This document shows, piece by piece, positions 9,101-63,324 of a stretch of DNA of 64,000 nt. The notes under the pieces are model-generated. The model saw only the letters and a list, made by a program, of their open reading frames with translations, had not been told where the DNA came from and made no database searches. The number at the start of each line of letters is the position of its first letter. Position 1 is the first letter of the stretch. A program made the translations under genes and the position numbers. Source of the DNA: Colius striatus (taxonomy: Eukaryota; Chordata; Aves; Coliiformes; Coliidae); assembly GCF_028858725.1 (NCBI RefSeq), contig NC_084761.1:19932501-19996500 (forward strand). The letters run 5' to 3'.

Positions 9101-10616
9101 TGAGGCATCACAATGGGATCTTAGGACCAGTGCATGTGTACTACTATTCTTTGCTGCTAATAGCTGTTTTTTACAGTTCTGAGAAAAGTTGCTCCATCAA
9201 TCACGATTTTATAGAGGTTTTCATGTGTTATGTGTGGGACTGAGAAGCTCCCATTGGTGCCAAACCTGTCAGAAACAAATCCTCTGTTGTACAGGATACA
9301 CAGGGTATCTAGGAGGTCAGATGCTTATTTCAATTGTCATGATAAAGCTTCCTAACATTTTAAAGTTTGAAAATACAAAACAAAGACAATGCTTTCACTG
9401 TAACATGCTATGTGTGATCCATTGAACAGAGCAAAGTTTCATATCAGTATTTCAGATAACTGCAGTAGAAATAAAAAGGCTGAGAAGCAGGAGCTCAGAT
9501 GAAACCCTCCCGTCCACACCCAGTGAAGCACTCACAGTTGCCTTGCTGTAGAATCAACACAGAGGCTCTGTCCAGCCAGCACATTAAACGAAACCCACAG
9601 GGTAACAGTGTCAGAAGACTGGTCCCTTGCTGTGCTGGAAGAGTGCATCCCGCTTGCCCTAGGGATCCAGGCTTTCTGCAAACACTGCCAGACCCCTGCC
9701 CACTGCAGTGCTATGTGACACACAGTAAGACCACGTGGTGGGCTAGTCATTTTTTTTTCAAATAGTATTTTGATTATTTTTTTCAAGAACAAAAGAGCAC
9801 CACGGTATCACACCACCTGCCTTGCTGAGGACAGCGGGATGCAATGGGCTGAGCTGTCACCATCACATGTCCCTTCATATGGACGGTAATATCCTTTAGC
9901 AATGATTAAAACACTCACCTACAAGTCGTCAGTGAAAACAATCATAGATTCAAAAGAATAGATATACATAGTAATTCCGTGTCAATCATCTGAGAGTCTC
10001 TTCAATGTACCAGGAGCAAACAACATGCTTAATACCCAGATTCCCTGCAGAAAACAGACAGGAAGGCCACATCGCCAGGGCTCCCCCCTTTCAGTGCACC
10101 TTTGAAATCCTCACTGGATCAACAACGCCCGTGCCGCAGCCCGCGCTCCCTCCCTCCCGGTACCTCTGCCCGCTGGCACCGCTGACCCCGCAGAGCTCCA
10201 TTTTCTCAGAGAAAACTGCAATTCAGCCGAGGGCATGGGGCAGCCACCCCGGAGGGGACCGACGAGGGAGACGATCCTCGCGGTGGCGAGCGCCGGGCCG
10301 GGCTTTGTCTTTCCCTCCCGTTCCCCTCACGGGGTGGGCGCCAACTCTGTCCGGCGCGCGCTCGGGGGCTCCAGCACGACCGTCCCGCCGTACCCACAGC
10401 GCTCCCCGCCGCGCCGGGAGGAGGAGGAGGACGGGCAGCGCATGAAGATGCCCCGAGCGGTGCGGCGTACCTGGCGGCTCTGCGAGGGGAGCTGCTGGTG
10501 CCGTAGGCGGCCCGGGGCGCCGGGAGCGAGAGGGCTCGCCATCTCCTCAGCGGTGCCAAGCCCGGGCGCAGCACGGAGGAGGAAGAGGAGAAGGAAAAGG
10601 AGGTCGCCGCCGCCAT
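68..10616 (-). CDS. MTHFD2L: MTHFD2L, 5' part (exons 1-3), partial at left edge
   Basis: Mitochondrial bifunctional methylenetetrahydrofolate dehydrogenase/cyclohydrolase of one-carbon metabolism. It oxidises 5,10-methylene-THF and hydrolyses the product to 10-formyl-THF in the mitochondrial matrix. Three coding exons are read on the minus strand: 10471-10616, 1493-1677 and 68-190, joined in phases 2 and 1 by canonical GT/AG sites. The spliced protein has an Arg/Ser/Ala-rich N-terminus suited to mitochondrial import, then the family blocks IISGTKLAK, RPHLTVILVGDNPASH, YVRNKI and VSGLLVQLPLP. The YVxxK-type tyrosine and lysine of the catalytic core are present. The wording VESWISFGNKRPHL and RPKDISQEELLD fits MTHFD2L better than MTHFD2, and the chemokine neighbours support this. 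Exon 3 ends at a GT donor at 67-66, so the NAD(P)-binding half lies outside the window. Intron 1 is about 8.8 kb and intron 2 about 1.3 kb. Confidence 0.95.
191..1492 (-). other. MTHFD2L intron 2
   Basis: AT-rich sequence between the two splice sites described for exons 2 and 3. I see no further exon, RNA gene or clear transposon in it. Confidence 0.85.
1493..1677 (-). CDS. MTHFD2L: MTHFD2L exon 2
   Basis: 185 nt, acceptor AG at 1679-1678 and donor GT at 1492-1491. It encodes the start of the folate dehydrogenase/cyclohydrolase catalytic domain, with ISGTKLAKQVLKEVQRD, GNKRPHLTVILVGDNPASH and YVRNKIKAAAAVG. The tyrosine and lysine of the YxxxK-like catalytic signature are intact. Confidence 0.95.
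3531..3864. repeat. Direct repeat copy 1 (about 334 bp) in MTHFD2L intron 1
   Basis: Closely similar to 7646-7981 in the same orientation. The first 65 or so bases (starting tttgcttattgaacctctc) are nearly perfect, and the rest matches at roughly 90% with small indels. I see no terminal inverted repeats, LTRs or poly-A tail and do not recognise it as a named family. It could be a local duplication or two copies of an unlabelled dispersed repeat. Confidence 0.9.
4738..4783. repeat. CA repeat followed by a 26-bp poly-C run
   Basis: A short CA-rich stretch at 4738-4749 leads into an uninterrupted run of 26 cytosines at 4758-4783. In the MTHFD2L transcript this reads as a 26-nt G run. Homopolymers this long are error-prone, so the exact length is uncertain. 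Confidence 0.95.
7646..7981. repeat. Direct repeat copy 2 (about 336 bp) in MTHFD2L intron 1
   Basis: Partner of 3531-3864. Both copies end at the shared gtaagctgaagtagg and diverge at once beyond it. The divergence suggests the duplication is old rather than an assembly artefact. Confidence 0.9.
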
Positions 10617-11110
10617 GTCGGTCCCGACAGACGGAAGCGCCACCGCGGCCAAGCGACGAGGGGAGGAGCCAGGGCAAGTAACGGGACCGGGGTCGCGGCG
10701 GGGCGCAGCGCGTGGCTGAAGGGCGGGCGGAGCTGCCGGTGCCGTGACAGGAACAGCGCGCCTGAGGGGCGAGGCTAATAATACACCGCCCGGCAAAATT
10801 GAAAGGGCGGCGGCAGTGCCTGCGGTGAAGGCATATCTGTCATCCGTTAAACGGCCCGAGGCTGTCGTGCCGTGCCCGGGGCTGGCGAGCCCTGAGGATT
10901 TGTGCGCTGAGAGGGCGAGCGGCACTGCCTCTGCCCAGGCCGCGGCACCCCGCAGCGCGTCGGAGGATTGCGGCGGGAACGGCTGCAGGTGATGGTGCAA
11001 AAGGCGGCCTGCATTTGCGGGCTTGGATTTGTGTGAGTTTCTGTTCCCGCCGAAACGTGGTGTGGGCAGAGGTCACACCGAGTCAAAGCTGTGTGGGCGA
11101 GCGTCGATGC
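10130..11110. promoter_or_regulatory. CpG island promoter of MTHFD2L
   Basis: A block of very high GC and CpG density in otherwise AT-rich DNA, spanning the MTHFD2L first exon and about 500 bp upstream of its start codon. I see no TATA box close to the start codon. This is the usual housekeeping-type promoter, and such islands often fire in both directions. Boundaries are by eye. Confidence 0.8.
10471..10616 (-). CDS. MTHFD2L: MTHFD2L exon 1 (mitochondrial leader)
   Basis: The start codon at 10616-10614 has G at -3 and G at +4, a strong vertebrate context. It is followed by 48 codons plus 2 nt and a GT donor at 10470-10469. The encoded leader begins MAAATSFSFSSSSSVLRPGL, is rich in Ser, Ala and Arg and lacks acidic residues, as expected of a matrix-targeting peptide. 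The serine run is encoded by an imperfect purine-rich stretch on the plus strand (about 10573-10603), so its length may vary. Joining to exon 2 restores a serine codon and runs directly into the DEATIISG block. Confidence 0.9.
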
Positions 11111-27252: not shown

Positions 27253-27465
27253 GAATCACAGAATCTCAAGGGCTGGAAGGGATCTCGGAAATTCATCTAG
27301 TCCAACCCCCCTGCCAGAGTAGGACCACCTAGGGTAGGTCCCACAGGAACTTATCCAGGTGGGTTTTGAATGTCCCCAGAGAAGGAGACTCCACAACCCA
27401 TCTGGGAAGCCTGTTCCAGTGCCTCGTCACCCTCACACCCTATTGCCTCTCAGCAAGGTTTTTAT
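27253..27465 (-). mobile_element. CR1 LINE 3' fragment
   Basis: Reads as an inverted CR1 tail. The plus strand starts aatcacagaatctcaaggg, then the 'ggaagggatct...tctagtccaacccc' block, then 'ccaggtgggttttgaatgtcc' and 'ggagactccacaaccc'. It is truncated at its 5' side, as is usual for CR1. It lies 3' of the 28-31 kb chemokine and may fall within that gene's 3'UTR. Confidence 0.85.
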
Positions 27466-28020
27466 TGATACCAAGAAATTCCTTTTCCCCCCTTTCTTTT
27501 CCTTTTTATTTATTTTTATCCTTTCAGTAAGAATCCCATTTGGTTAATATTTCTTTACTTAGAAAGCTACAGCCCTCTTAAACTAGACCAAGCTGTACTT
27601 CCTAGTCATTCTGATCACCACTTAGAGATGGTTTGGTGTAACGGACCAGTTCAGCAAATGCCAAGCCCTTGGTGCTGCTAAACCTGGGCAGATGTTTCCA
27701 GCTGAGCAAAGCAGGGCCAGGGCTTGTTTAGATATTGCTTTAAAGGCAGTTAAACACCCTGTACATTTTTGCCATAAAATCCAAGAGTCTGCTAGTGTTG
27801 TGACAGCCTATTGAGCCCAGCAGTTTCCTTTTGCAGATGAATGGTATGTGCATGGAGGGCAGGGAGGATAGGAAAAGCTACAGTGAAATTATGAATACCC
27901 AACTCTACAGACACTGAAAGACTCAGGGCATTTCTGTGCAGCTATCTCTTGCTTGCAGGGGTGCCTTGGTTTCCTTTACTGATGTCGTTTCTTGGATGAA
28001 CTGTAATACAGATATTGTAG
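27466..28020 (-). other. Probable 3' flank/3'UTR of the 28-31 kb chemokine
   Basis: Lies directly downstream of the proposed stop codon. Minus-strand AATAAA hexamers occur in the T-rich stretch near 27500-27520 and could serve as poly(A) signals. The true 3' end cannot be fixed by eye. Confidence 0.35.
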
Positions 28021-31000
28021 TTAATTACTGCAGTCACAAAACAGTGAGGTTAATTTGCAAACGTTGAAACCAGGCAAAAGTTAATCACTTTTGGTGGAAA
28101 AGAAAATAATGATTTCTGTCTTTTCAGTTGAATGTTTGTTTAATTCACACTAGGGGGATGTCTCTTGAAAATATGCTAGAATAAATTTGCCTGGAGAGCT
28201 GCTGTGTGTAATCTGTTTCTGAGGAGCTGCACCCACCCACACATACAGGAGAAGCTTATCTTCATGACTGTCTGTTCTCTTGGGCAGACCGTGGACACAG
28301 GGAAGCGCTTCCAGGACTGTTACTCCAGAAAACCCACACATGGCCCTTGGCAATGTGGAGCTGAACACAACCCTGAGGAGCCCTCAATCAGTACACTTGT
28401 TTGAAACGTAAAACATGTAACTGTTTGTTTAAAATTACTGACATATGTCGGGTAGGCCTTGTTTCTGCCTTGTCCAAAGACCAATGACATCTCGTCCTCC
28501 TGTATGCTAGCCCTGCACTACTCAAATGGCTCTCAGAGAAGTTTGTACACACTGGAGAAAATATGGAGTTTGTTTACTGGAGAAAATATACCCTTTGATG
28601 GAATAATTTCAATTACTAGGTAATCCTGGCAGTTACCTGTGTAGAATCTTGTTGATTATCACCTTCACCCATTTGGCCTGGGGATCTAAACAGATTTGCT
28701 GGCTGTTCTTCAGTGTTGCTCTGCAGTGGAATGAATATTTCACTTGAGTTAATACTGGCACCTGAGGAGGTCAGAGGAGGATGCAGACAAGGCTAAAGAT
28801 TGTAAGCTTAAGGGCTACCAACTCTTCAGCATTTGTAAGCCTGCTGACTTCTCTTGCCTGCTGACTTTACTTACATGATTTCCACAATGTTGCAGTGTGG
28901 GCCCTTAGGAATGATTTCTACATTGGCCAGGTGCTTCAGTGACATTAATCCTTTGACAGTCTGGATGCAATGACACCGCAGCTCTGCTGCCAGCATTATG
29001 TCTGTGAGAAAATGAAAGGGAAGCCGATAATGTCTGCAACTGAACCAAACTAACATCGAAAATTATAATCAGAGAAAGCAGAAGCAATAAAAAATGAATG
29101 CCTCAAAGTATTAATAAATTGCTGTGCATGATTTTAAGGCAGTATCTTCACTGAGCAAGAAGAAGGCGTTTGAGATTTGCAGACTTTGTACAGGTAACAA
29201 TTTATAAGTTCCCATTACTACTTAAAATTATTTTGACATCCCACGACATGAAGTGCAATAAAGACCTACTGGAAGTGTGGGACTCCTATCTTATAAGAGG
29301 AAGAAAAATCTAGTTGAAGAGGCAGACTGGCTACTCCGCATGAATGCAGCCTGGAGGTGAAACCTATTTGGGATAAAATTCTAGGCTGATTCCTGGTGTG
29401 AAAAAGCAATGAAAATATTCAGCTTAGAAGTTCAATCAAGATGCTAGGAAAGGTGTGGAGGCTTCTGAGGAAGCACCTCTAGGTAAGTACTAGAAGCAAG
29501 AAAACTAACAAGCTTTGGGATGAGTTTTAATTACATTATGCCACATGTTGTACAGCACCCAACTCCATGGACTGAATTTGCTGTTGCCTGACAGTGCTTC
29601 CAGACCCATGTTGCCCTAGTGAAGCAAAAGAAATGTTATCTCAAGTTTAGGGACTGAGCACAGAGCACCAGAGTGGTGATGGAAATTATCTATGAAGCCC
29701 AGGGCTTTCCCAGCTCCACTCTGACACTGGAATTTCTTCCTGTTTCCAAATCAGATATCACAGGTTGAAATGCACATCACAGCTCTTGCATTTGTCCATT
29801 TTTCCTACTGAGATAAACTGCATCTTCAGCTTGATATTCCTGATGTTTGAGCTGTGGAGTGTATTTGAAAGAGGAGATTCAGTAATCTGAGGGCTGTATC
29901 AACAAGAAGAAAAGACCAGCTCCAGATAAATGGATTTGGGGCACACAGACACTCTTACTCAAATGAGTATAGCTGCAGGAGATGAAATCCCAGTAATTTC
30001 ATAAGTCCTCTCTTACTGTGGGTAGTCTTGACATCCCTTAAGACCAAACAGCAAACCCCTCTACCTCATCCCATGCTAGTTCTTGTATCTTGATGTGACC
30101 AACCGTCTGTTTCCCTTCTTCACTTATGTTCTGCCCAGATGAATCTGCTGGTTCATCTTTTGGCTGACTGACACCTCCCTACCTACCTGACAGAATGAAG
30201 AAACAGACGCTTTTGAAAGTCAAGCACTGGGTAACACAAAGCATTGCAACAGAGCAACAGCATCCCATCTGCAGGCTCAAGAGAAGAAAATAAGATTCCC
30301 AGAGACTGTACGAGGGCTTCACTGCAGATATGTGTAATGATACAGGCGTCCTTTTAGCAAGTTGTCCAGCCTGCAGGTTGGCTACATCCAACTCTGTTCT
30401 GGCTCAAGCGAGACTGCACATGTGTGTCATCACAATGTGAAGCCAGGACACAATAAGAACAAGTATCCACAGGGTACTGAGGCTTGGAAGCATTCCAGAC
30501 CCCTACATTTGGCATACTTTCTGCCCACAAAATACTTTCTGGACTTTCCCAGCAGAGTTTGGATTTTATTACCCCCATGCTTCTCAGGAAAGAGCTCTAG
30601 CAGACGTCCGTTGATTATAAACAGATTGATTAGAACTAAGTTGAAAATTCCAAACTTTCATCTCAGGCTTGTTATCATAAAAACACAAAAAGTGATAACG
30701 ATGCAACATGCCACACAGTTATTGCAGGCTAGCACTTCTGAGGCCCTGGTTGCAATCTCATTTTTCTCAGAGTATTTCAAGGACAAGTTCACCAATGTCA
30801 GTGAATCTCCACTAGCAGAAGGATAATATGAGACAAAAAATACTCCCACCATCAGAATCCGTGAATATTTTTTTCTTGACCTACTACCTCAAAAATAGTA
30901 TGAGTACGGAAGTCCTACACACCTTGAAAACATTCTGTTTATCTAAATCATTTTGCAGAAGAACTATAATTCAAAGGAAAATAAATTTATTTTTCTTACC

Positions 31001-31057
31001 AGGAAAGTTGCCCATAAAAGACAGAATCAGGAGAGAGATTACAGTCTTGGTATCCAT
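28021..31057 (-). CDS. ELR-positive CXC chemokine (CXCL8/GRO-like)
   Basis: A small secreted chemoattractant of the neutrophil/heterophil class. Exons on the minus strand: 31000-31057 (signal peptide, start codon at 31057), 28875-29001, 28637-28720 and a proposed exon 4 at 28021-28027. Intron phases are 1, 2 and 2, as in all CXC chemokines here, and exon 3 is 84 nt. The model gives 91 residues: a leader MDTKTVISLLILSFMGN, ELR at 26-28, CHC in place of CxC at 29-31, Cys 56 in GPHC, Cys 72 in QQICLDP and Trp 79 at the start of the C-terminal helix. Exon 4 is the weak part. The acceptor with tract cactgttttgtgactgcag gives only S-N-stop, but its intron (609 bp) matches that of CXCL8 (578 bp). 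Other acceptors near 28219 and 28573 are possible. No clear TATA box was found. Orthology to a named mammalian gene is not resolved; a third avian inflammatory CXC gene is a reasonable guess. Confidence 0.85.
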
Positions 31058-31840
31058 GACTGCTCTCTGTGCCTTCTTATGGTGAACTGAAAACAAACTT
31101 CACTGTGTCTTCAGACCCACTTGGGACTGCTGACACTGTTACACTCCAAGAGTTGTTTCTCATGGACATGTACATACAGATTGAATTACTCTTGCTCATG
31201 TATTTTGCCACAACCAGGACAAGTAGTGGAAAAATATGAGATGAAACAGCTTGTACTGACACACTTGAATCAGAGCAGTAAGTAGGAGCCACTCTGCTTG
31301 CTGAGATTCTTTCTTAATTCCATTAAAACAGTAAAATATTAAGAGTGACTAATCTTATGCTTGTTAAAGCAGTGAGAGAGATCTTAAGCTTCATTGGTCA
31401 TCATCATTTGCAGCTCAGTACTTGCTTATTTTATATCAGTGCTGAAATGCAAGACAGAACCAACTCAATAATAGAACATTGGCAAAAATCTCAGTGATTG
31501 TGTTATTTGGCTAGGAAGTTGGATCGTTATCACTATAAGATAATGATCTTTAGAGATACTTTTGTATATATTTATCTGCTGTCCCTTAAAACATCCAACA
31601 AATTCATCAGCCAGGACATGTCAGGAACTCGTCCTGTTTCTGAGCACACATTTATCTGTAAGGAAAGAGACTTCAGCTGTATGGAAAAGACATGTCATGC
31701 CATGTGCTCTGATGTCCAGAGAACAGCTCCTGACCTCTTGCATTTATTCATACTGTATAATAATAATAATAATAAAAAAGATTTAAAGAAGGTTTGACTT
31801 TTCAACACCTGAATATTAGGTGGTGTTTTACAAAGCACTT
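31058..31840. other. Upstream region of the 28-31 kb chemokine
   Basis: Should contain the promoter of the minus-strand chemokine, but I see no convincing TATA box or NF-kB site. A short AAT trinucleotide repeat lies at about 31758-31775. Confidence 0.4.
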
Positions 31841-32050
31841 ATCATAGAATCATAGAATGGTAGGGGTTGGAAGGGACCTTTAGAGATCATCTAGTCCAAC
31901 CCTCCTGCAGAAGCAGGTTCACCTAGATCAGGTCACATAGGAACATGTCCAGGTGGGTCTTGAAGACCTCCAAGGAAGGAGACTCCACAACCCCTCTGGG
32001 CAGCCTGTGCCAGGGCTCCCTCACCCTCACAGTGAAATAGTTTTTTCTAT
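31841..32050 (-). mobile_element. CR1 LINE 3' fragment
   Basis: A clean inverted CR1 tail: atcatagaatcatagaatgg, then 'ggttggaagggacc', 'tctagtccaaccctcctgcag', 'gtccaggtgggtcttgaag' and 'ggagactccacaacccctctgggcagcc'. The good match suggests a moderately young, 5'-truncated copy. Confidence 0.93.
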
Positions 32051-33204
32051 ACTGTGTCATTTCAGCTCCTATTCCTTTAAAAAGAACTAATAATGTGGTT
32101 CATGATTTTGTTTAATGAAGATTTGAGTTACTTATGCAACAAACACACACACATAATAAACCCAATACACCAGCTGTGGAAATCCCAGGAACAGCCACCA
32201 CCTCCTCATGCTCCTTTCTGTGCCCTTAACCCTCTTTGGTTTTACTGTGCTCTTCTCAGTCAAGGACAATTTAATTCCTTCTTGCAAACCCCTTCAGACT
32301 TTCAAGGAGGCTGCCTGTTACTACGCTCTTGCATTTAACCTTATTGAAAACAGGTCTTTTTTTCAGATCTCTTTTTCCCACTCCTTTCTAGATATTTCTC
32401 CTGAGAGGAAAATTCAGAGATATACTACCAGAAAGCATACATTTGCCACTCTGCTGGTCAGTGTCTCCTGGCCTACGACCAGACCTGCACATTGCACACT
32501 GCTTTTGATCTCAGTCTAGCCCTGCCTTCACTTGTAACGAGTTACTGATGATTTAGATATACCTAAAACATTGTATTCAGAAAGGATTCCTGAAATTGAG
32601 GCACTCAATTCTACCCAGTCAATGTTTTGCTTTGTTGTGAGTGGTGTGTGTGTTTGCATACTGTGAAATCCGTCATTCAATGAAATAACTAAAACATTGG
32701 CAATTTTAGAAAATGGCTGAAAAAACAGGCAAAAATACTAAGAAGTAGCTAATTACAATATTTTTTAATTCCAAAGTACAAGTAAGACCAATTTTTTTCT
32801 AAGATATGTACTTAGAAAAGTATTTCCTTTCAAAACCAGTAAAGCATGTCACTCTACAGTTCTAAAATTATTTCCACAACAGAGGTTATCTCATAAAGCA
32901 ATGGAAAATCTTAGGGGCTTGCGAAGTTAATAGCTCACAGCAGAAAAGTATCATTGGTTACTTCAAGGACTGGGATAACAGACTTGGTCTTAGTTTATCT
33001 GTATATATGTCTGAGAAATTGCTGACATTTTCTGCAAAATGACTTCTTGCTTTGGTCTATATGTTAATTTATATTGCAGCAAACTTCAGTCCTCTGTCAG
33101 TAACATGAAGGCACATATTTTTGCATTCTCATCAGGTGTCAACTGCAGGGCTGCTCTACTGTATCTGAACACTTCTGTGACACTGTAATACTTGCATTTT
33201 TGTA
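32051..33204. other. Intergenic, no gene recognised
   Basis: About 1.15 kb between two CR1 copies, with no recognisable exon. Confidence 0.55.
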
Positions 33205-33967
33205 ATCAGTGGAGGAACCTGCATCAAGGACAAGTGTAGAGTCTTACATCTGGGAATACCCCATGTACCAGTAGAGGTTGGGGAATGGACTCTTAGAGGG
33301 TAGTGTAGGGGAAAGAGACCTGTGAGTCCTGGTGCACAGCAGGATGAGCATGAGCCAGCAATGTGCCCTTATGGCCAAGAAGGCCAATGGCATCCTGGGG
33401 TGCATTAGAAGTGGTATGGTAGAGTAGGTCAAGAGAGGTTCTCCTCTCCCTCTACTCTGCCCTCCTGAGACCACATCTAGAACATTGTGTCCAGTTCAGG
33501 GCCCCTCAGTTGACGAATTTCAGGGAGCTGGAGAGAGTTCAGCACAGGGCCACCAAGATGCTGGAGTGGAGCATCTCCCTTATGATGAAAGGCTGAGGGA
33601 GCTGGGGCTCTTTAGTTTGGAGGAGACTGAGGGGTGACCTCATTAATGTTTACAAATATGTAAAGGGCTGGTGTCAGGAGAATGGAGCCAGGTTGTTCTC
33701 AGTGATGTCCAATGATAGGACAAGGGGCAATGGGTAAAAGCTGGAACATAAAAGGTTCCAAAGAAGCATAAAGAAAAACTTCACTGTGAGGGTGATGGAG
33801 CACTGGAACGGGCTGCCCAGATGGACTGTGGAGTCTCCTTCTCTGGAGACATTCAAAACCCACCTGGATGAGTTCCTGTGTGACCTACTCTAGGAGGACC
33901 TGCTCTGGCAGGGGGCTTGGACTAGATTATCTTTCAAGGTCCTTTCCAACTCTTGAGATTCTGTGAT
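33205..33967 (+). mobile_element. CR1 LINE 3' part (about 0.76 kb)
   Basis: Plus-strand CR1 from the end of the reverse-transcriptase coding region to the tail. Recognisable in order: 'aagtgtagagtcttacatctggg' (the CRVLHLG region), 'catgagccagcaatgtgccc', 'gaggggtgacctcattaatg' (RGDLINV region), 'cactggaacgggctgccc' and a terminal ttgagattctgtgat. The frame is broken and the 5' end truncated, so it is a dead copy. Confidence 0.93.
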
Positions 33968-35690
33968 CTGCAGCCCAATTGACTTGTTACCACCAGCTGA
34001 AAATTTATGATCTCAAGCTTGTCTTTCAAGGACAACAACTACAGTGCAAGACAGAGCATAAATTCTGGGACTGGCAAGAGACTTCTGCAGCCCAATGTGG
34101 TGTGACTAGAGGTGAGACAGAAGAGGGCTCAGGTCATTTGTCATTGTTCTTCCTTGTGGCCTGTGCAGAAGCAGCAAGTTGGCCAGCGTGTCTATCTGTG
34201 GAGCTCTGGTAGCACTGGAATGGGCTGCCCATAGCACTACCACCCAATGGGAGTAAGGGGTAGGCCTTAATGAAGTCCAGGAACTCCTCATCTACAGCCT
34301 TTCCCCTTCATTTTGTGGTTTAAGAATATGCAGTTGATCTAAGTAGATGTGTGTGTTTGTGTGTGTGTGTGTACGTCTATGTATATATAGTTGTTTTAAA
34401 GTAAAATCCACCCTTTGACAGATGCTTTATTTATTCAATTCTATACATATATGTGTGTAATCCCTCCCATTCCCTGTTGGTTTTTGGCATGTAGCTTTAT
34501 CCAGCTTACTCTCTCCCCTAATTTATTTTCTCTTTAATATTTCCAAAGTTGCACAATTTGATTTGTTGTTTTTCTCTGACATCTTTTTATCCCTTTACTA
34601 TTCTAAATATCTGCACTCCTCTGATGGATCAGTCAGACAAAAAATATTCTTTTCCCTAGCTAAGTTTTAATACAGTAAAACCTTTTCCCTTCAAGAGCAA
34701 CATCAGGAAGATGGTGTCAGTAAAAAAAAACAAAACCCAACCTTTCTCCTTCTGAGTGATGTAACACTTTTTACTAGCCATAACAGCCCAAATACTAGAC
34801 TTCAAAATTGCAGCATTACAGGCAGAAAAGCTATTTTATACATCAAGTTTGCAAAACTCAAAAAAGTAACATCCAGTTACTTGCTAGGTAAAGAAGTAAG
34901 GAACAAGGACAAGCCTTGTTTGTTTGAATTTGCTTTCCAATGATTTCTCTCAAAGCAACGTTAGGCTGCGTTAGGAGGTTGAGCTGGTTGTCTTCAGGTG
35001 TCACAGGAGAGCACCACCTGACTCTTAGCTGTGTCAGCAAGGCCAGGATGTGGTTATACCTTCAGATACAATTCTAATTAATTCAGTGAGCAAACAGCAA
35101 AGGATTATTTTGTCACTAAGCAAGTATAGTATACCAAGTAAATGATGATACTGCTTTGACTAGAAACATGCACCAAAAAAAGAATCCAGAGGCGGAGATC
35201 CTTTGCTATAAAATGTGTCAGGGCTCCTTGTTACAGCCAGGACCTGAATGATTTATTTTTCTGGAAACATATTTGCTGTTGTAAACTGTCATGGTTTCTT
35301 ACTGCAGCAGACACTGCTGCTTCTACCTCCCCAGCAAAACACACTTCACGTCAAACAGCCCTGCTTCAAGTTACACAGAATACAAGTTCCTGAAGATTGC
35401 AGAGGTTTATGTGGATTCAGTACATCCACCCTGCAGTTAATCTCGCTTCACATCAGCAGCTCCGAATGAAGAGTTTAAAAAATATGCCTCTGAATCTAAA
35501 AGCACCTTTGCTCAGTACAAAGTGTCCCCAGCACTTCAAGAATGGGACTTCAAGTGTGCCCAGGAAGCCCTGGGCATGAACAGAGGTTATGTGTCCCTGT
35601 TTCCCAGCTAGCCAAATTGACATAGCGACACAGACAGGTCCACCTTAACACGGACTTCACCAAAAAACCCTTTACCTTTTTCAAGAGAGA
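33968..35690. other. Intergenic, no gene recognised
   Basis: AT-rich, with a TG dinucleotide repeat at 34348-34372. A short 'cactggaatgggctgccc' echo of CR1 near 34213 is too small to call. Confidence 0.5.
34348..34372. repeat. (TG)n microsatellite
   Basis: Imperfect TG repeat of about 25 bp, interrupted once by a TTT. Confidence 0.9.
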
Positions 35691-35695
35691 ATATT

Positions 35696-36255
35696 TTTAT
35701 TATGTTATTATTTCATGATAAATCCACCTTTTTCATAAATACACTTTTCCAAAGCAGAATAAGGAAAATTACTTATTCTATATGAGTGATGACAGTATGT
35801 CATACAAGTAGACATAAAATATCTAAGCCTCTTCAGAACATTTACTGTTCCTTTACATCTTGTGTATAAATACCAAATAATTAAGTGTGAACTTGTTTGT
35901 CAACAAACAAATGTGAACAAACCGACCAACCAACCCCAACATTATCTTGTTAGAAACAAATCTCCACAATGGACTCATCTTATTTTTAGAGAGTATGTAA
36001 ATGTTTGTAAATGCTATTTACAAGAACTTGGCAAATAGTGTTTGGGGAGAAGGAGCTTGCACAACAGTTGGGGTGCTGAGGTTGCCAAGAGGTGCCTAGT
36101 AAAGCCTACACTGTCTTATTACACACACTGTATCACTTCAGCTGAGTCAACACATATGTAGGAACTGGCAGTAATAAATATGAGGGGAGAATCTTAAAGG
36201 AACTAAACATAGAGCAGCTGGTCTACAAACTCATTAAAACTAGAGAGTCGGGCTA
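35696..36255 (-). other. Probable 3'UTR of GC-rich CXC chemokine A
   Basis: Downstream of the proposed stop at 36256. A minus-strand AU-rich core CATATTTATTAC lies at about 36171-36182, and an AATAAA hexamer at about 35697-35702 could end the transcript. AU-rich instability elements are usual in inflammatory chemokine mRNAs. This inference depends on the exon 4 choice. Confidence 0.45.
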
Positions 36256-37234
36256 CTATGTTCTTCCAGCATCCATTTCCCGGTATCTTCTGGCAAAAAG
36301 AGGTGGCTTCATTTGGAGAGGTTTCTTCTCTCAGGGCTTCTTATGTGAACTGCAATAGGCAGAATTCAAATTATGAAGCCAGTCAGGAAATCTTTCCTTA
36401 AGTACCATATAGGAGACGTATCTTCTGGAAAAGATGCCTGTTGATGATGGTGAACCACACTGGCCTGCTATGATTTGCCTTTTATTTGTGATGCCTACTC
36501 TACCTGACCGACAGGGTTTTCTTTCTTCAGCAAAGAAACCACTTTTTTGGCAACTCTGTGGCATAACTAAACAGCCTTCCCCATAGAAATCCACAGCAGA
36601 ATGTGGCTTGTTACTTCTGTGACACCCACACTAGTTTCAAACCCACTGAAGAGCTGAGCTTGGTCCCCAAAAGGGCTCGCGCCAGCGAGCAGCGCGGCGC
36701 CTCTTCCCGGACCCAGGGGGAAGTGGCTCCAGCCCCTGGTCCCGGCAGGTACCTGCTGAGGAGCTTGGCGAGGAGAAGCTTGACCCAGGGTGCGGAGGGG
36801 CTCAGGCAGACCGTCTGTCCCTGCTTCGTCGTGGCTCTGTGGGGCGAGGCAGGGAGTGAGGTTGGAGCCGGGCCCGGGCCTGGGGCCGGGAGGGGGCCGG
36901 GCACTTACATGACCTCGGGCACGGCGCAGTGCGGCCCCTCGGCGACGAGCTCCAGGCGGGCCAGGCGTCGCGGCGGGATCACGTCGGAGACGGCCCGCAC
37001 GCAGCGGCAACGCAGCTCCCCGGCCAGCGGCGCCCCTGGCAGCGGGACGCGTCGCCTGAGCCCCGGCTGCGGGGCCCCCGGCCCGCCCCGACCCCCGCCG
37101 GCCCCCGGCCGCAGACGGCTGGGTGTCCCGGCTCAGCCCGCCGGCAGAACCCGCAGGCGCTTACCCCGGCAGCGAGCGGCGGCGGCGGCCAGGAGGAGGA
37201 GGAGGAGCAGGGGGAGGCGGAGGTGCGGACTCAT
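36256..37234 (-). CDS. GC-rich ELR-positive CXC chemokine, copy A
   Basis: Compact secreted chemokine gene. Minus-strand exons: 37165-37234 (start codon at 37234), 36909-37035, 36753-36836 and a proposed exon 4 at 36256-36289, phases 1, 2, 2. The 104-residue model has a Leu/Ala-run signal peptide (MSPHLRLPLLLLLLLAAAAA), GELRCRC with ELR at 30-32 and Cys 33/35, GPHC with Cys 60, VCLSPSAPWV with Cys 76 and Trp 83, and the tail RRYREMDAGRT. Exons 1-3 encode exactly the same protein as copy B at 45 kb, with one synonymous difference. Exon 4 was chosen for its strong pyrimidine tract (cctctttttgccag) and short tail. A competing acceptor at 36618-36617 would open a 95-codon exon. A TATA-like GATAAAAG lies at 37294-37301. 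The ELR motif predicts CXCR1/CXCR2-type receptor use and heterophil recruitment. It could be a partly converted or non-expressed copy if exon 4 is wrong. Confidence 0.83.
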
Positions 37235-37321
37235 GGCCGGTGCTGGCGGTGGAGGTGCTGCGGGAGCAGTGTGCGGCCCCTTGTCTGCTGGAGCTTTTAT
37301 CCCTCACCGGGAGCTGTCGGG
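36732..37321. repeat. 590-bp tract shared with copy B
   Basis: Matches 45052-45640 with about eight substitutions and one C insertion (about 98.5% identity). The differences cluster in intron 2. Identity ends abruptly in intron 3 on one side and about 20 bp upstream of the TATA-like box on the other. Confidence 0.93.
37294..37301 (-). promoter_or_regulatory. TATA-like box of chemokine A
   Basis: GATAAAAG on the minus strand, about 60 bp upstream of the start codon, leaving room for a 5'UTR of some 30 nt. Identical in copy B. Sequence upstream of about 37321 is unrelated to copy B, so distal control may differ. Confidence 0.6.
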
Positions 37322-44034: not shown

Positions 44035-44828
44035 TTTATTTTTCTGCTGGACAGAAATATGAAGAGCACAGGAAACTGCATCTACACAATTCTAAAAGGA
44101 GTAACTAGCAGCATGTTCACTTAAAACTTCATATAAATTATGACATTATGCCATACAAAGAAAGACATCACATGTCTAAGGTTGCAAAGAGCAAAATCCA
44201 TCAGCTCCCTCAAAATGCAAATGCACTAGGTAAGCAGTGCTGGCTGAACAGGGTCTTCTGGCACAAGAAGGGAACTGAAAGTTGCTGCTGACCTGGCATT
44301 GCAGAGCTACCTTTGGCTCTGGCACAGCAGGCTGAGCTGTTTCCCAGGTGGTACAAAACAAAATAAAGACATGGCTTGGGAGGCGGCAGTTCGCTTCTCT
44401 GCTCAGGGCTGCTGTGTAAAGTAAATGTTTCTGTGAGTTACACAAGGCCTTACAAAGGCGTGTAGCATGGAAACGCACTTCATGCTGATGTTGAAGCCTC
44501 ATCAGTGGTTTGCTGATGACCAGGCAATTTTTTTCCTGTGAAAGAATTCAGGATATTTTCTGTATCTTTTCTTCTGCACAGCCTCCCAAAAAGCATGACT
44601 TTAAGGAAAGTAAATTAGTACAGCATTTAAAGTTGTGCTTTTCAGACAATGTCCAAATTAAAGATACATCTTACACAGTACTTGCAATATTTAAATAGAC
44701 AGATATAATTACATTAAATAAAGATCCAAATAAACAGTTGGAACTCAAACACATTGTGTTTCAACATAAGGAAGCTCCTGAAGCCTCAGGCTCCGTGCCA
44801 TCCCACCTCCAGCGACGTCCTTCCCCCT
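44035..44828 (-). other. Probable 3'UTR of GC-rich CXC chemokine B
   Basis: Follows the stop codon of copy B. It holds a minus-strand AU-rich cluster at about 44688-44735 (TTTATTTGG, TTTATTTAATG and CTATTTAAAT) and an AATAAA hexamer at 44035-44040 as a possible poly(A) signal. It shows no similarity to the flank of copy A. Confidence 0.55.
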
Positions 44829-45553
44829 TCAGTTCTTCTGCATTGAGCTGAAAGTGAACAGCCGAGAGGACAGCCATCAGCACTGCCTGCCAATACCCGT
44901 GGCCTGCAGCCCGCTAGGAAGCAGGATGCGAGGCAGGTGGAAGAGGCTGCCCCCGCTTTACCCGGGGGGTCTGTGCCTGTGCTGCTGCCAGGGCTGCAGC
45001 CACAGCCTCCCTGCTCCGTCCCGGGACATCCCCGCGGCGGAGACCGGGGCTGCCCCTAGTCCCGGCAGGTACCTGCTGAGGAGCTTGGCGAGGAGAAGCT
45101 TGACCCAGGGTGCGGAGGGGCTCAGGCAGACCGTCTGTCCCTGCTTCGTCGTGGCTCTGTGGGGCGAGGCAGGGAGTGAGGCCGGAGCCAGGCCAGGACC
45201 TGGGGCCGGGAGGGGGCCGGGCACTTACATGACCTCGGGCACGGCGCAGTGTGGCCCCTCGGCGACGAGCTCCAGGCGGGCCAGGCGTCGCGGCGGGATC
45301 ACGTCGGAGACGGCCCGCACGCAGCGGCAACGCAGCTCCCCGGCCAGCGGCGCCCCTGGCAGCGGGACGCGTCGCCTGAGCCCCGGCTGCGGGGCCCCGG
45401 CCCGCCCCGACCCCCGCCGGCCCCCGGCCGCAGACGGCTGGGTGCCCCGGCTCAGCCCGCCGGCAGAACCCGCAGGCGCTTACCCCGGCAGCGAGCGGCG
45501 GCGGCGGCCAGGAGGAGGAGGAGGAGCAGGGGGAGGCGGAGGTGCGGACTCAT
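44829..45553 (-). CDS. GC-rich ELR-positive CXC chemokine, copy B
   Basis: Minus-strand exons: 45484-45553 (start codon at 45553), 45229-45355, 45073-45156 and 44829-44847, phases 1, 2, 2, all with GT/AG borders. The model is 99 residues: the same leader, ELR (30-32), Cys 33/35/60/76 and Trp 83 as copy A, but a private tail ending SSMQKN. Exon 4 has a good acceptor (ctgttcactttcag) and a length usual for the family, and an AU-rich 3'UTR follows, so this copy looks complete. The introns are only about 72-220 bp, which makes the whole gene about 0.72 kb. Third-position GC is close to saturation, unlike CXCL8 16 kb away. Expected role: secreted heterophil attractant acting through CXCR1/CXCR2-type receptors. 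I cannot say which named avian or mammalian gene it is orthologous to. Confidence 0.9.
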
Positions 45554-45640
45554 GGCCGGTGCTGGCGGTGGAGGTGCTGCGGGAGCAGTGTGCGGCCCCT
45601 TGTCTGCTGGAGCTTTTATCCCTCACCGGGAGCTGTCGGG
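45052..45640. repeat. 589-bp tract shared with copy A
   Basis: Partner of 36732-37321; same orientation, about 8.3 kb away. Confidence 0.93.
45613..45620 (-). promoter_or_regulatory. TATA-like box of chemokine B
   Basis: GATAAAAG on the minus strand, about 60 bp upstream of the start codon, identical to copy A. Upstream of 45640 the sequence is GC-rich and private to B (CCGCGCCCGGGAAAATAC on the minus strand). No perfect NF-kB consensus is visible. Confidence 0.6.
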
Positions 45641-56837: not shown

Positions 56838-57318
56838 AAAGTGTCCAGTTCTGGGCTCCTTAGTTGAAGAAGGACAAGGAGCTGCTGGAGAGAGTTCAGT
56901 GCAGGGCCACCAAGATGTTGAAGGGAGTGAAGCATCTCCCTTATGATGAAAGGCTGAGGGAAGAGGAGATTGAGGGGTGACCTCATTAATGTTTACAAGT
57001 ATGTAAAGGGCAGGTGTCAGGAGAATGGACCCAGGCTGTTCTCAGTAATGTGCAATGATAGGACAAGGGGCAATGGGTACAAGCTGGAACATAAGAGATT
57101 CCAAAGAAACATAAGGAAAAACTTCTTCACTGTTCAGATGAGGGAGCACTGGAACAGGCTGCCCAGGTGGGCTGTGGAGTGTCCTCTGGAGACTTTCAAA
57201 ACCCACCTGGACAAGTTCTTGTGTGACCTACTCTAGGAGGTCCTGCTCTGGCAGGAGGGTTGGACTAGATGATCTTTCGAGGTCCCTTCCCACCCTTAGG
57301 ATTCTGTGATTCTGTGAA
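56838..57318 (+). mobile_element. CR1 LINE 3' fragment
   Basis: Plus-strand CR1 with a still-open frame reading [19 protein letters not shown] and [20 protein letters not shown], the C-terminal end of the CR1 polyprotein. It ends in 'ttggactagatgatctttcgaggtccc' and attctgtgattctgtga. It is 5'-truncated, very like the 33.2-kb copy and so the same subfamily. Confidence 0.95.
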
Positions 57319-57884
57319 GAGTGTATATGGCTCAAATCAATAGGGATGCACTAGCTAAAAGCAATATGCTTTAAGCCTGTGCTCTCTCTTATTCTCAGTT
57401 CCTTTCCTGAAGATGACCAACATGTTGCTGGCTTTCATTGGGCCACCTTTGCAGATGATTTCAGAGAATTATTGAGCATCAATGTTTTATATTACTGCCT
57501 TATGAACTGCTCTGGGACTCCTATGGGAAGATGCATTACACTACGAGAACTGTGCTTCTCAACAGACCCTGCAGGACAGGGGAGGTGGTGATAACAATAT
57601 GAAGCATCCTATTTTATCTACCAGAATCCTTCCTTGGTGTTCATATGTGGTATAAGTACTTCTCTCTCAAAGGGACCAAGCATCATGCCTGTGCATTGTG
57701 AGCAGGAACAGATGGGCCTTTTAAAAGAGACAGGCATCATGTACTCAGCATTCCCCATTTCAGAAGTCAGAGTAAGAAGCAGTTCTTACACAAGGGCAAA
57801 TGCTTGATATTTGGGTACCCAAAGTAAGTGTCACAAATTCCCATTGTAATAGTCAAATATCAGCCTTTTGATGTAATAATGTCT
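57319..57884. other. Intergenic, no gene recognised
   Basis: About 570 bp between two CR1 copies; nothing recognised. Confidence 0.55.
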
Positions 57885-58242
57885 GTCTAATTTGATGTCA
57901 TCTATCTTGACTTCACCAAGGCTTTTGACATCCTCTCCCATGATAGTCTCATAGCAACGTTCAGGAACTGGGAGTTGGATGACTGGATGATGAGGTAGAT
58001 CAAGAACTGTCTGAATGACAGAACCCAGAGAGTGGTGATCAGTGACGCAGAGTCAAACTGGGGGCCTGTGGCCAGTGAGGGTCCACAAGGATCGGTTCTG
58101 GGGCGTCTTGTTCAATATCTTCATCAACAACTTTGATTAAGGGATGGAGTGTGTCCTCATCAAGTTCACTGGTGACACCAAACTGGGAGGAGCAGCTGAC
58201 TGAGCAGAAGGCTATGCTGCCATTCAGCAAGATCTTGACCAG
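57885..58242 (+). mobile_element. CR1 LINE, reverse-transcriptase part (left half)
   Basis: Reads as YLDFTKAFDI, then GPQGSVLG and a mutated K-F-x-D-D-T-K-L-G-G block (here TGDTKLGG). These are core motifs of the CR1 reverse transcriptase. Stops and the changed FADD aspartate show a dead copy. It continues at 59176 after an inserted LTR. Confidence 0.9.
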
Positions 58243-59170
58243 TGTGATGGGTTTGCATGGAGCCGCTGGTGCTTGGTAACAAGAGGGGGGGGCTGCCGTG
58301 CTGTGCCCATAAACTTTCCCCAGCTTGGATCCCACCTCCGGCCTGGCTGGGCCAATCTTTTGTGTGGTGCATAGGAGGAGATGAAAGGGTTGGGCAAGAG
58401 GGAGGCAACTTGTGGACTCCACAGTCAAGAGGAGGAAGGGAGGAGGAGCAACACTGGGCCAGAGACCAGCCAATGGCAAGAGAGCAACTGTTTCACTGCA
58501 ACTCATGGAGGGCAATGGCAGGACTAATGGCAGGACTAATGGCAGGACTAACTCTGACAGGACCCTGTACCAGAGGGACTTGAGTGTTGGAAACCCCATG
58601 TTGGGGACAGAGTGTTGCAGACCCCGACCCTGGCCCCAGTGGAGAGGAGCTAAAGCCCTTGGGATGAACACAGATCAGAGTGGCCCATGCACAGCTTTCT
58701 GACCTGTGGGACACCCTGCACTGGAGCAGAGAGGACCAGCAAGGAGTCCATCTGCCTTGAGGAGAGACAAGTGACAGGAGCCATTGGGAAAGGACTGACT
58801 GCCCCCTGAGCCGTTCAAGAAGGGAGGAGGTAAAGACACCAGGATCATGTGTCTGAGCCTGGGAAGAGGGGACAAGTCGGGGGAATGGGATCTCAAAGAG
58901 GCTGGTTGCCCTACTCTGTATTGGTTTTCGTTGGGTGGGAGGTTTTTGTTATATTTTTGGTTGATGGCAGGTTAAATTAAGTTTGATTTTCTTCCCCAAG
59001 TTGATTATTCCTATTTGTTTTGCCTGGGACCATAAGTAGTGAGTGAGCCTTCTCTGTCCTTAGGAGGTTCCAAAGGCCCTTAGTACTTTTCCCCATCCTG
59101 TCAGGAGCAGGAGGAGTGACCAAGTGGCTGATTGTGGTTTTTTGTTCCTAGATGGGCCTAAACCGTGAAA
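58243..59170 (+). mobile_element. Apparent solitary LTR inserted in CR1 (fossil)
   Basis: About 928 bp splitting a CR1 element. It starts TGTGATGGGTTTGCATGG and ends with an AAACCGTGAAA-type terminus, resembling avian endogenous-retrovirus LTRs (ERVL-like by start, end and duplication length). It is flanked by a 5-bp target duplication, accag at 58238-58242 and atcag at 59171-59175, with one mismatch. No internal viral genes are present, so it looks like a solo LTR left by recombination. It is younger than the CR1 it interrupts. Confidence 0.7.
58513..58552. repeat. Three-copy 13-bp tandem repeat inside the LTR
   Basis: The unit atggcaggactaa recurs three times in a row. Confidence 0.9.
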
Positions 59171-59175
59171 ATCAG

Positions 59176-59944
59176 CTTGAGAATTAGGCACACAGAAACC
59201 TCATGAGATTCAACAAGGGCAAGAGCAGAGTCCTGCACCTGGGAAGGAACAACCCCATGCATCAGTACAGGCTGGGGATTCATCTGCTGGAGAGCATCTC
59301 TGCAGAGAGAGACCTGGGAGTCCTGGTTGACAATAGACTGAACATGAGCCAGCAATATGCCCTTGTGACCAAGAAGGCCAATAGCATTCTGGGATATATT
59401 AAGAAGAGTATATTCTGCCCTGGTAAGGCTTCATCTGTAATACTGTGTCCAGTTCTGGGCTCCCCCATCTCAAGAGAGATGGGGAATTTCTAGAGAGAGT
59501 CCGGTGCAGGGTCACCAAGATGATAGGCATCTTTCCTATGAGGAAAGGCCATGGGACATTGGGCTGTTGAGCCTAGAAAAGAGTGAGGGTGGATGTCATG
59601 AACACTTATAAATACCTAAAGAGTGAATGTCAAGAGGATGGGATGACACTTTTTTCTGTAGTATCCAGTGAAAGGACTAGGGGTACTGGACAAAAGCTGA
59701 AACACAAAAAGTTCCAGTTAAACACAAGGAAAAAACTTGTTCTCTGTAAGTGTGAGAGAGCCCTGGCACAGACTGCCCAGAGAGGTTGTGATGTCTCCTT
59801 CTCTGGAGATTTCCAAACCTGGATGGGTTCCTGTGCACACTGATTGAGGTGAACCTGCTTTAGGAGGGGATTGGACCAAGTGATCTTTAGAAGTCCCTTC
59901 CAATCCCTGCCTTCTATGATTTTGTAATTCTGTGATTCTGTGAT
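59176..59944 (+). mobile_element. CR1 LINE, 3' half (continues 57885-58242)
   Basis: Resumes the CR1 frame after the LTR: 'cctcatgagattcaacaaggg', then an open stretch reading RVLHLGRNNPMHQYRLG and MSQQYALVTKKANSILGYI. The tail is gatctttagaagtcccttcc and repeated attctgtga. Together with the left half it spans about 1.1 kb of CR1. Confidence 0.93.
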
Positions 59945-61095: not shown

Positions 61096-63324
61096 TTAGA
61101 GTGGCGAGTCAGAATTGAGTTGGGCTCTGTTAAGAGAAGAGGAAAGGAGAATACTTAAAAGAAGGTTCAAGAACAGTTGTCATTGCTTAGCATTGTGCAG
61201 TTAAGGATGAGAGGTCTGCTACCAACTCTATGTGTTATCTTGAGGCACAGGGAGAATAAAGATGTTTCAAAAGCAATTACTGAAATCCTAGTGTGTCTAT
61301 ATTTGGCAACTTGCTAAGAAACTTTTGCAGCATGAGTTTCTGCATTTACTTGCATCAAGAAATTCATAACTTGGAAATACCAATTCTTGACATATGCTAC
61401 TGTAAGTAAGGGGAAGATGAATTTTTTAAAGCCTCATCTTTAAAAGAGAAACAAACTGTGTTCCTCTCCCTTCAGACAGTTGCCAATACCCAAAAGTTTA
61501 GAGGTGATGTATCGGCTTGAACAAGGACCTTGCAGCAGAGTCAGAAAAACTAAGACTAATTCTAGAATTAAGCAGCAATTTCTCATGTTCTTTAAATCCA
61601 ATTAAGAGAAGATGGAAAGTATCACTAAGAAATCCTACAAACTGGCTTTTTTTGAGAGATTTACCACCAGTCAACTGCGCAAATTGAGAGGGAATGGGAC
61701 TTACTTGGCCAAAATTGCCTTTATGATCAACTGCACCCAGGGAGCAGTGGGCTCCAAGCACACCTCTCTGCCGTCCTTCAGAGTAGCTCTGCAAAACAAG
61801 GGGTAAAGAAAAGTCAGGAAACCACCACATGGATTGGCTTTACTCACAGAATCTGATGTTGCATTTTTAGATTAGTTAGTATAAATTTATCCCAGCTACT
61901 CTAGGTTAGACTTGGCCGTTTTGTTATATGTGTTTTACAGATGAGGAGATGAAAACCATTGCAGTCACACATTCCCAAAAGTCTTTCTCAATATATGTGG
62001 GTACTTGGTTTGAATTTGTTTGCATTAGTAAAGCTTTCATATACAATGATTGAACTTCCAGGAGTGAAAAGGTGCTTTAGCTGTATAAGGATTTAAACAT
62101 TTTTGTCCCTCCTCTGTGCTATTCAAGACCAGATTAGTTTTGCTGTTTCTCTAAATCTGCTTGTGGGAACTTAATTTTTCTCTCTGAGACCGACACAGAG
62201 TATTTTAATGATAGTTTTGCCTGCCTAATAAATGCAGGATTTAAACTATGGTGCTACCTTGTGATTCAAGAACTGACTACCTCGTGTCAGCCTGTACCTA
62301 TTGTATTTGTCATGAAACGCAAAAGCCCTTGCAGTGGCAGCAGCAACAGAGGGGATGTGAAGACGAGGGAGGGTCTTGCAGAGCTACTTACATGACTTCA
62401 ACATTCTTGCAGTGGGGGCCACTCTGTGTCAGCTTGACATCTTGAATGGATTTAGGAGGGATGAACTTTGAATGAGTGGCTACACACTGGCACCGGAGCT
62501 CAGTTGCCATCCTTGCCAGGGTCATACCTGCACACACAAAAGGAAGATAGTGGTTTGAGATGCGGTTTTACCATCACTATATTGGACGTGATTTCTCTAT
62601 TTTAACAACATTATCAAGTAAAATACTGCATTTGTCCAAGCTGCCTAATTCCTCATGGTGCACAGATCAGTTGCCTGTTTGTTTCAGAGAAGCTGATACC
62701 CAAGTACATCTAAAACTAAACATATTTTTAAACTAAACCCACATATTTTATGGTTACTTGTACTGGCCACGTTGTTTAGTTAGTCACGTTTTAATACGTG
62801 GATCTACAAATGGGCAGCTATACAGAAAGTTCAGCTCTAGATTTCTTTGTTAATTTGAAGCTTATCTATGCTTTTATGTTCATATTGTTCATTCTCCGTT
62901 CCCAGCTGTATATTACTTGTTTGAGGCAGTATGATCATTAAGTAAAACATATGAGATTGTAAACTATGTGAGAAGGGAGAGAAACATTCAAACACTTAAG
63001 AAGAAGATCCTGTCTCTAGCTGCATATGCTTCAGTGAACCGTAGAAACAAAGCAAATTTAAGTTATATCCTTAAACTTTTTCCCACAAGATGTCAGTAAC
63101 TCTTCAGTACAAGAGCTATGCGGTAGCTTTCTGACTGAGAAGTTGCTGAAATCTCTCAAAGGAAATTAATTTGCTGAAACAGATATAAAGCTATCTCTCT
63201 GCAAAGACCAGTATCTTAGTTGATGCCTAGACAATACTACAGCCACAGGAGGGATTTACTGACCTTGAGACATAGCTGCTGAAATCAGGAAGAGAGCCAG
63301 GACAGCCACCAATTTGCCGTTCAT
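61096..63324 (-). CDS. CXCL8: CXCL8 (interleukin-8), complete
   Basis: Secreted ELR-positive CXC chemokine that recruits heterophils/neutrophils via CXCR1/CXCR2. Minus-strand exons: 63264-63324, 62392-62527, 61705-61788 and 61096-61126, phases 1, 2, 2, all GT/AG. The product is 103 residues, the length of chicken IL8L2 (CXCLi2, 9E3/CEF4). It has a leader [23 protein letters not shown] at 30-32, CQC at 33-35, [20 protein letters not shown] with Cys 60, [19 protein letters not shown] with Cys 76 and Trp 83, and the tail [10 protein letters not shown], almost the chicken ending. All four disulphide cysteines are present. The promoter and AU-rich 3'UTR show inducible, unstable expression. Base composition is ordinary, unlike the GC-rich chemokines at 37 and 45 kb. 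Confidence 0.97.

Follow-up and report, generated by a model that had tools for sequence, protein, structure and literature searches.

Tandem CXC chemokine genes in the window

The stretch of DNA analysed (the window; 64,000 nucleotides, C4:19932501-19996500, on a contig of 99.9 Mb) carries part of an array of at least six tandem CXC chemokine genes (G1, A, B, G4, G5 and G6), all on the minus strand, that was identified by a Pfam search of the genome (Table 1). Genes A and B each have three clear exons and a predicted fourth; a four-exon structure is typical of CXCL8/GRO genes. Intron 1 (129 bp in A, 128 bp in B) and intron 2 (72 bp in both) have GT/AG boundaries. The spliced product would begin MSPHLRLPLLLLLLLAAAAARCRG-APLAGELRCRC, and inspection by eye recognized a putative signal peptide in its Leu/Ala-rich start, an ELR motif before C-X-C, and four cysteines (APLAGELRCRC...GPHC...VCLSP). 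The spliced A and B proteins match the Pfam IL8 family (PF00048) with 57.9 and 57.8 bits, respectively, against a curated cut-off of 21.3 (E = 1.2e-15). The near-identical tracts of A and B (Table 1) are thus the 5' parts of minus-strand genes for ELR+ CXC chemokines, signal proteins that attract neutrophils. Their best matches among solved chains are CXCL2 (62.7 bits), PF4 (62.1 bits) and CXCL3 (59.5 bits), with a one-residue gap relative to A and B in all five of the aligned chains listed, and the pair looks GRO/CXCL2-like.

Table 1. Features of the chemokine gene array (window positions unless prefixed C4)
Feature	Position	Strand	Basis
G1, CXC gene, exons 2-3 (GRO/CXCL7-like; AAELRCHC...)	28642..28993	-	Pfam; best matches GRO alpha, NAP-2/CXCL7
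Block of residual homology in the presumed A 3'UTR	35780..35827	-	Similarity to B block
Exon 4, gene A, favoured candidate (SSHKKP-stop)	36331..36349	-	Acceptor ttgcag; match to B candidate
Near-identical tract, copy A (probably homogenised)	36732..37321	-	Self-BLAST
Exon 3, gene A	36753..36836	-	Splice sites; PF00048 genome match
Intron 2 stretch with 5 of 8 substitutions (A coordinates)	36862..36878	-	Alignment columns 443-459
Exon 2, gene A (mature N-terminus APLAGELRCRC...)	36909..37035	-	AG/GT sites, spliced translation, Pfam IL8
Exon 1 coding part, gene A (putative signal peptide)	37165..37234	-	ATG to GT donor
TATA box, gene A (GATAAAAG)	37294..37301	-	Sequence; same in B
Block of residual homology in the presumed B 3'UTR	44131..44180	-	Similarity to A block
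Exon 4, gene B, favoured candidate (SSMQKN-stop)	44829..44847	-	Acceptor ttcactttcag; 1 of 9 candidates listed
Near-identical tract, copy B (probably homogenised)	45052..45640	-	Self-BLAST
Exon 3, gene B	45073..45156	-	Splice sites; PF00048 genome match
Exon 2, gene B	45229..45355	-	Splice sites, spliced translation, Pfam IL8
Exon 1 coding part, gene B	45484..45553	-	Sequence
TATA box, gene B	45613..45620	-	Sequence
G4, CXC gene, exons 2-3 (CXCL8-like)	61707..62516	-	Pfam; sequence matches
G5, CXCL8-like array gene, right of window	C4:20006552-20007759	-	Pfam
G6, array gene beyond window	C4:20012060-20012980	-	Pfam

The A/B core differs in composition from the rest of the array, with a GC3 of 0.91-0.93 versus 0.50-0.65 in four other array genes, and a second intron of 76-77% GC versus 36-44% GC and 153-1030 bp in other array genes. 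For comparison with G1, a table of a 2012 survey lists a CXCL7-group gene in none of three birds (PMC3568907). G5 does not have the ELR motif, its sequence reading EKGFQCLC where its neighbours have ELRCQC; on this substitution, it is possible that G5 has lost neutrophil-attracting activity or taken on a new role.

Elsewhere in the window, positions 10206-11000 (71% GC, with overlapping long open frames) resemble the first exon, within a CpG island, of some unrelated gene. Positions 27253-33970 and 56841-59921 hold several dispersed repeats, 71-87% identical and lying in both orientations, which we take to be probably CR1-type elements, and a direct repeat pair of approximately 340 bp (3531-3864 and 7646-7981) is 89% identical. 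Rfam gave no match at the gathering score, GTDB and IMG/VR contigs no relatives, and phage records no match.

Extent and identity of the tract shared by A and B

Self-BLAST of the window aligned the two tracts at 98.475% identity, with 8 mismatches and 1 gap. No other pair among the 12 listed at E<=1e-5 is as long or as similar; the remaining 11, which are 71-89% identical, lie elsewhere. The copies are spaced 8.3 kb apart in the same orientation on the same contig, and each begins 20 bp before the TATA box and ends 21 bp inside intron 3. By alignment, the substitutions comprise seven transitions and one transversion (two of the eight at CpG sites, as read by eye), the sole indel is 1 bp in intron 1, and the single difference in coding sequence (CCG/CCA) is synonymous. 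Five of the eight substitutions fall within 17 alignment columns (443-459), all in intron 2, a clustering that has a chance probability of 6.5e-5 if substitutions are uniform over the tract, or 3.5e-4 if only noncoding sites are variable, and that hints at either a patch that escaped conversion, with a conversion tract to each side, or one cluster of mutations. The initial annotation had described a near-identical tract of about 590 bp with about eight substitutions and one indel, only one (synonymous) coding difference, a concentration of differences in intron 2, and a content of promoter core, exons 1-3, introns 1-2 and the start of intron 3; self-BLAST returned the same coordinates, and the alignment, the TATA box and the GT/AG sites bear out the remainder of this description.

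In the genome (1.21 Gb, 191 contigs; best candidates only), two of eight DNA matches to the tract are full-length, A and B themselves, so that a third copy was ruled out among these candidates; the remaining six are partial, 50-61 bp long, and fall in the GC-rich coding sequence of exon 1 (query positions 434-494). Gap filling or polishing of the assembly might have placed one core at both loci, since GC-rich stretches are error-prone and GC content reaches 88% in 100 bp of this window (average 41%), but there is no N in the window or in 40 kb of joined neighbouring sequence, the flanks of the two copies are distinct, both copies are on one contig, and the copies differ by eight substitutions and an indel, with seven of the eight being transitions and two at CpG sites; such an artefact is very unlikely.

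Near-identity is restricted to this core. The edges of identity are abrupt, with no fading, and self-BLAST of the window detected no high identity between the 8.3-kb units beyond the tract. A fresh duplication of the whole unit, from which kilobases of approximately 98% identity would be expected, was therefore rejected. The shared orientation and 98.5% identity would also suit a whole-gene tandem duplication of recent date, after which large indels replaced the flanking DNA of one copy, but besides the missing high identity this explanation needs independent replacements on both sides, and the residual similarity on the 3' side (see below) is far more diverged than the tract; it is accordingly highly improbable. 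The synonymous nature of the only coding change is in keeping with purifying selection alone having kept two old copies alike, but introns 1 and 2, the 5'UTR and the synonymous sites almost equal the protein in likeness, unlike the flanks, and this leaves the explanation with practically no probability.

Sequence outside the tract

No A/B homology was found in 1.2 kb of 5' flank (score equalled or exceeded in 95 of 500 resamplings), and the 250-bp promoter has no excess similarity by local score (306 of 400 resamplings as good). A scan of the upstream sequences for NF-kB, AP-1 and C/EBP motifs found a strict kB site in neither copy and, in A, one candidate AP-1-like site. On the 3' side, leaving aside the 21 bp of intron 3 inside the tract, the only A/B match at E<=0.05 is a block in the presumed 3'UTRs, in which 38 of 50 columns are identical, with 10 mismatches and a two-base gap (E = 6e-4 to 1e-3). 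The block is nearly colinear in the two genes (926 bp from the exon 3 donor in A versus 893 bp in B), and its Smith-Waterman score of 37 was reached by none of 500 first-order resampled sequences (maximum 34) and by none of 276 real 1.2-kb control pairs (maximum 33; drawn from 24 segments, so the pairs are not independent). Among the 15 pairs of array genes whose 3' flanks were compared, the strong matches seem to be dispersed repeats or stretches rich in AT, and short matches in other pairs (29 bp in G1-A, 15 bp in G1-B, 15 bp in G4-G5) also pass E<=0.05; weak matches alone therefore prove little. The possibility that the block is a dispersed repeat was discarded when a genome search with the B sequence (44100-44200) matched no place but its own at E<=0.001, a search that also missed the A relic and so leaves room for weak relatives. 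The presumed 3'UTRs, with end points chosen by the analyst, contain six and five ATTTA motifs, against 2.3 and 1.8 expected from composition; inflammatory chemokine messages are often rich in ATTTA.

A second residual similarity is seen between the favoured exon 4 candidates of A and B, which are identical at 12 of 19 nucleotides. Random flanks contained as good a match to the B candidate in 3 of 3000 cases, a figure that covers the search within A and not the choice of the B exon among nine candidates, the A exon having been chosen after seeing B. The window has 952 acceptor-like sites, counting both strands, and the A site is the only one that fits the B exon, apart from that exon itself. 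When exon 4 and its surroundings were compared between A and B, 2 of 400 resamplings were as good by global (end-to-end) score and 26 of 400 by local score. Other exon 4 candidates have acceptors with higher pyrimidine scores (0.71 at 36289 versus 0.65 in A; 0.82 at 44913 versus 0.76 in B). The candidate at 36289 (RRYREMDAGRT-stop) had been considered as exon 4 of A, and was replaced by SSHKKP-stop (36349) after relaxation of the acceptor filter and the chance tests. As a positive control, the exon 4 search recovered convincing tails in G4 and G6 (KANTKPDTVS-stop in G6), which presumably resemble chicken CXCL8-type tails; a like search of G1 found no convincing exon 4.

Both residual similarities are far more diverged than the tract (8/589): the exon 4 candidates differ at 7 of 19 positions (Fisher P = 5e-8) and the 3' block at 10 of 48 (P = 6e-8), each having been picked as a best match. 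There is no excess A/B similarity in what remains of intron 3 (local score matched in 269 of 400 resamplings, global score in 198 of 400), in the interval from exon 4 to the block (142 and 320 of 400, respectively), or beyond the block (196 and 299 of 400).

Both loci have GC-rich surroundings. Immediately beside the tract, the 100-bp stretches on the two sides are 64% and 56% GC in A, and 74% and 71% GC in B, values that are reached by 1.5% and 4.2% (A) and 0.5% and 0.8% (B) of other 100-bp windows, and these flanks are not homologous to each other. Had a 590-bp piece been inserted into average DNA, such surroundings would not be expected on both sides. The piece might nonetheless have been pasted, by template switching or end joining, at a place where no chemokine gene stood, creating a chimeric gene or a dead fragment, which would agree with the abrupt edges and the 5' flank devoid of homology, as well as with the fact that exon 4 of A is predicted and has competing candidates. 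The matching exon 4 candidate and the nearly colinear 3' block at both loci argue against this origin, as do the GC-rich surroundings, and chance would have to account for a start just before the TATA box and an end just after a splice donor; on balance, it is unlikely, though less so than the other alternatives to gene conversion.

Proposed gene conversion and related systems

The most probable history is that A and B are old tandem paralogues, the core of which was homogenised recently by interlocus gene conversion. Conversion between older paralogues predicts ancient homology beyond the tract, and this was found on the 3' side; since the 5' side has no relic homology, the case stands on two short relics of the 3' side, and the loss of all upstream homology is only assumed. 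The proposal in the initial annotation of ectopic gene conversion between older tandem paralogues is thus supported, by these relics and by the lack of kilobases of approximately 98% identity, whereas its description of the flanks as unrelated has to be divided: the upstream sequences have no detectable homology, but the 3' side keeps two relics, the exon 4 candidate and the 3' block. Likewise, exon 4, the 3'UTR and the upstream DNA, which it called different, are indeed strongly diverged, but 12 of 19 nucleotides and 38 of 50 columns still match on the 3' side.

According to this proposal, two old tandem paralogues, ELR+ CXC chemokine genes similar to GRO/CXCL2, would have diverged almost beyond recognition in exon 4, the 3'UTR and the flanking DNA. 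One copy would then have suffered a break and been repaired from the neighbour 8.3 kb away, in a stretch still similar enough to pair, so that the GC-rich, compact core (TATA box, exons 1-3 and two short introns) of one copy was recently overwritten. The outcome would be two genes with the same chemokine core and with different upstream DNA, short C-terminal tails and 3'UTRs. It is by inference that the relics are assigned to exon 4 and the 3'UTR, and that a conversion from one copy into the other is placed a few million years back. With an avian substitution rate of 1.9e-9 per site per year, the 8 substitutions in 589 sites correspond to a tract age of roughly 3.6 My (1.5-7.0); equally rough estimates from noncoding sites only are 6.0 My (2.4-12.3), or 1.4 My (0.3-4.0) if the intron 2 cluster is left out.

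The high GC content of the core could be the expected product of GC-biased repair in repeated conversion, although an ordinary CpG-island gene looks alike. A bolder and rather doubtful extension is that overwriting has recurred for tens of millions of years, the core evolving as a shared module, while the two promoters, tails and 3'UTRs diverged freely, and that GC-biased repair drove the core to approximately 76% GC and hid these GRO-like genes from earlier bird surveys. In Table 1 of the 2012 survey, chicken, zebra finch and duck all have no entry in the CXCL1/2/3 group (PMC3568907), and part of another report describes GC-rich bird genes that were missed by databases (PMC4539667); by analogy, GRO-like genes may be unlisted for birds owing to their high GC content.

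If the conversion reading is correct, A and B are a clean example from nature in which concerted evolution is confined to a cytokine gene's functional core and leaves its regulation and tail free to diverge. The two genes are hard to separate by exon 1-3 probes, short reads or coding-sequence trees, and orthology across birds could be misread as a result.

Among the literature matches listed, which are not proof of absence, no title concerns conversion between bird CXC ligand genes. Conversion between nearest neighbours is suggested, in a passage of one report, to contribute to ligand similarity (PMC3749542). For chemokine receptors, gene conversion is noted in part of the 2012 survey (PMC3568907), and conversion between CCR5 and CCR2 is described in part of another report (PMC6383237). 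These cases, as far as those passages go, resemble the history proposed for A and B in that a limited tract was homogenised between neighbouring immune paralogues; they differ in being mammalian receptors rather than bird ligands with almost unalignable flanks. The primate CCL cluster, according to sections of a study of five clusters (PMC3161012), is similar to the case proposed here in that coding exons were converted between clustered chemokine ligand genes, CCL15 being the gene with the most conversion events there, and differs in that its ligands are of the CC type and its conversion activity was the least of the five. The GRO genes CXCL1, CXCL2 and CXCL3 are likewise ELR+ ligand genes in tandem, and CXCL2 and CXCL3 are among the best solved relatives of A and B; no significant gene conversion was found among the GRO genes in the results given in part of PMC5627130. 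Homogenisation of the kind proposed for A and B is a process known in gene clusters, and is here unusually clear-cut.
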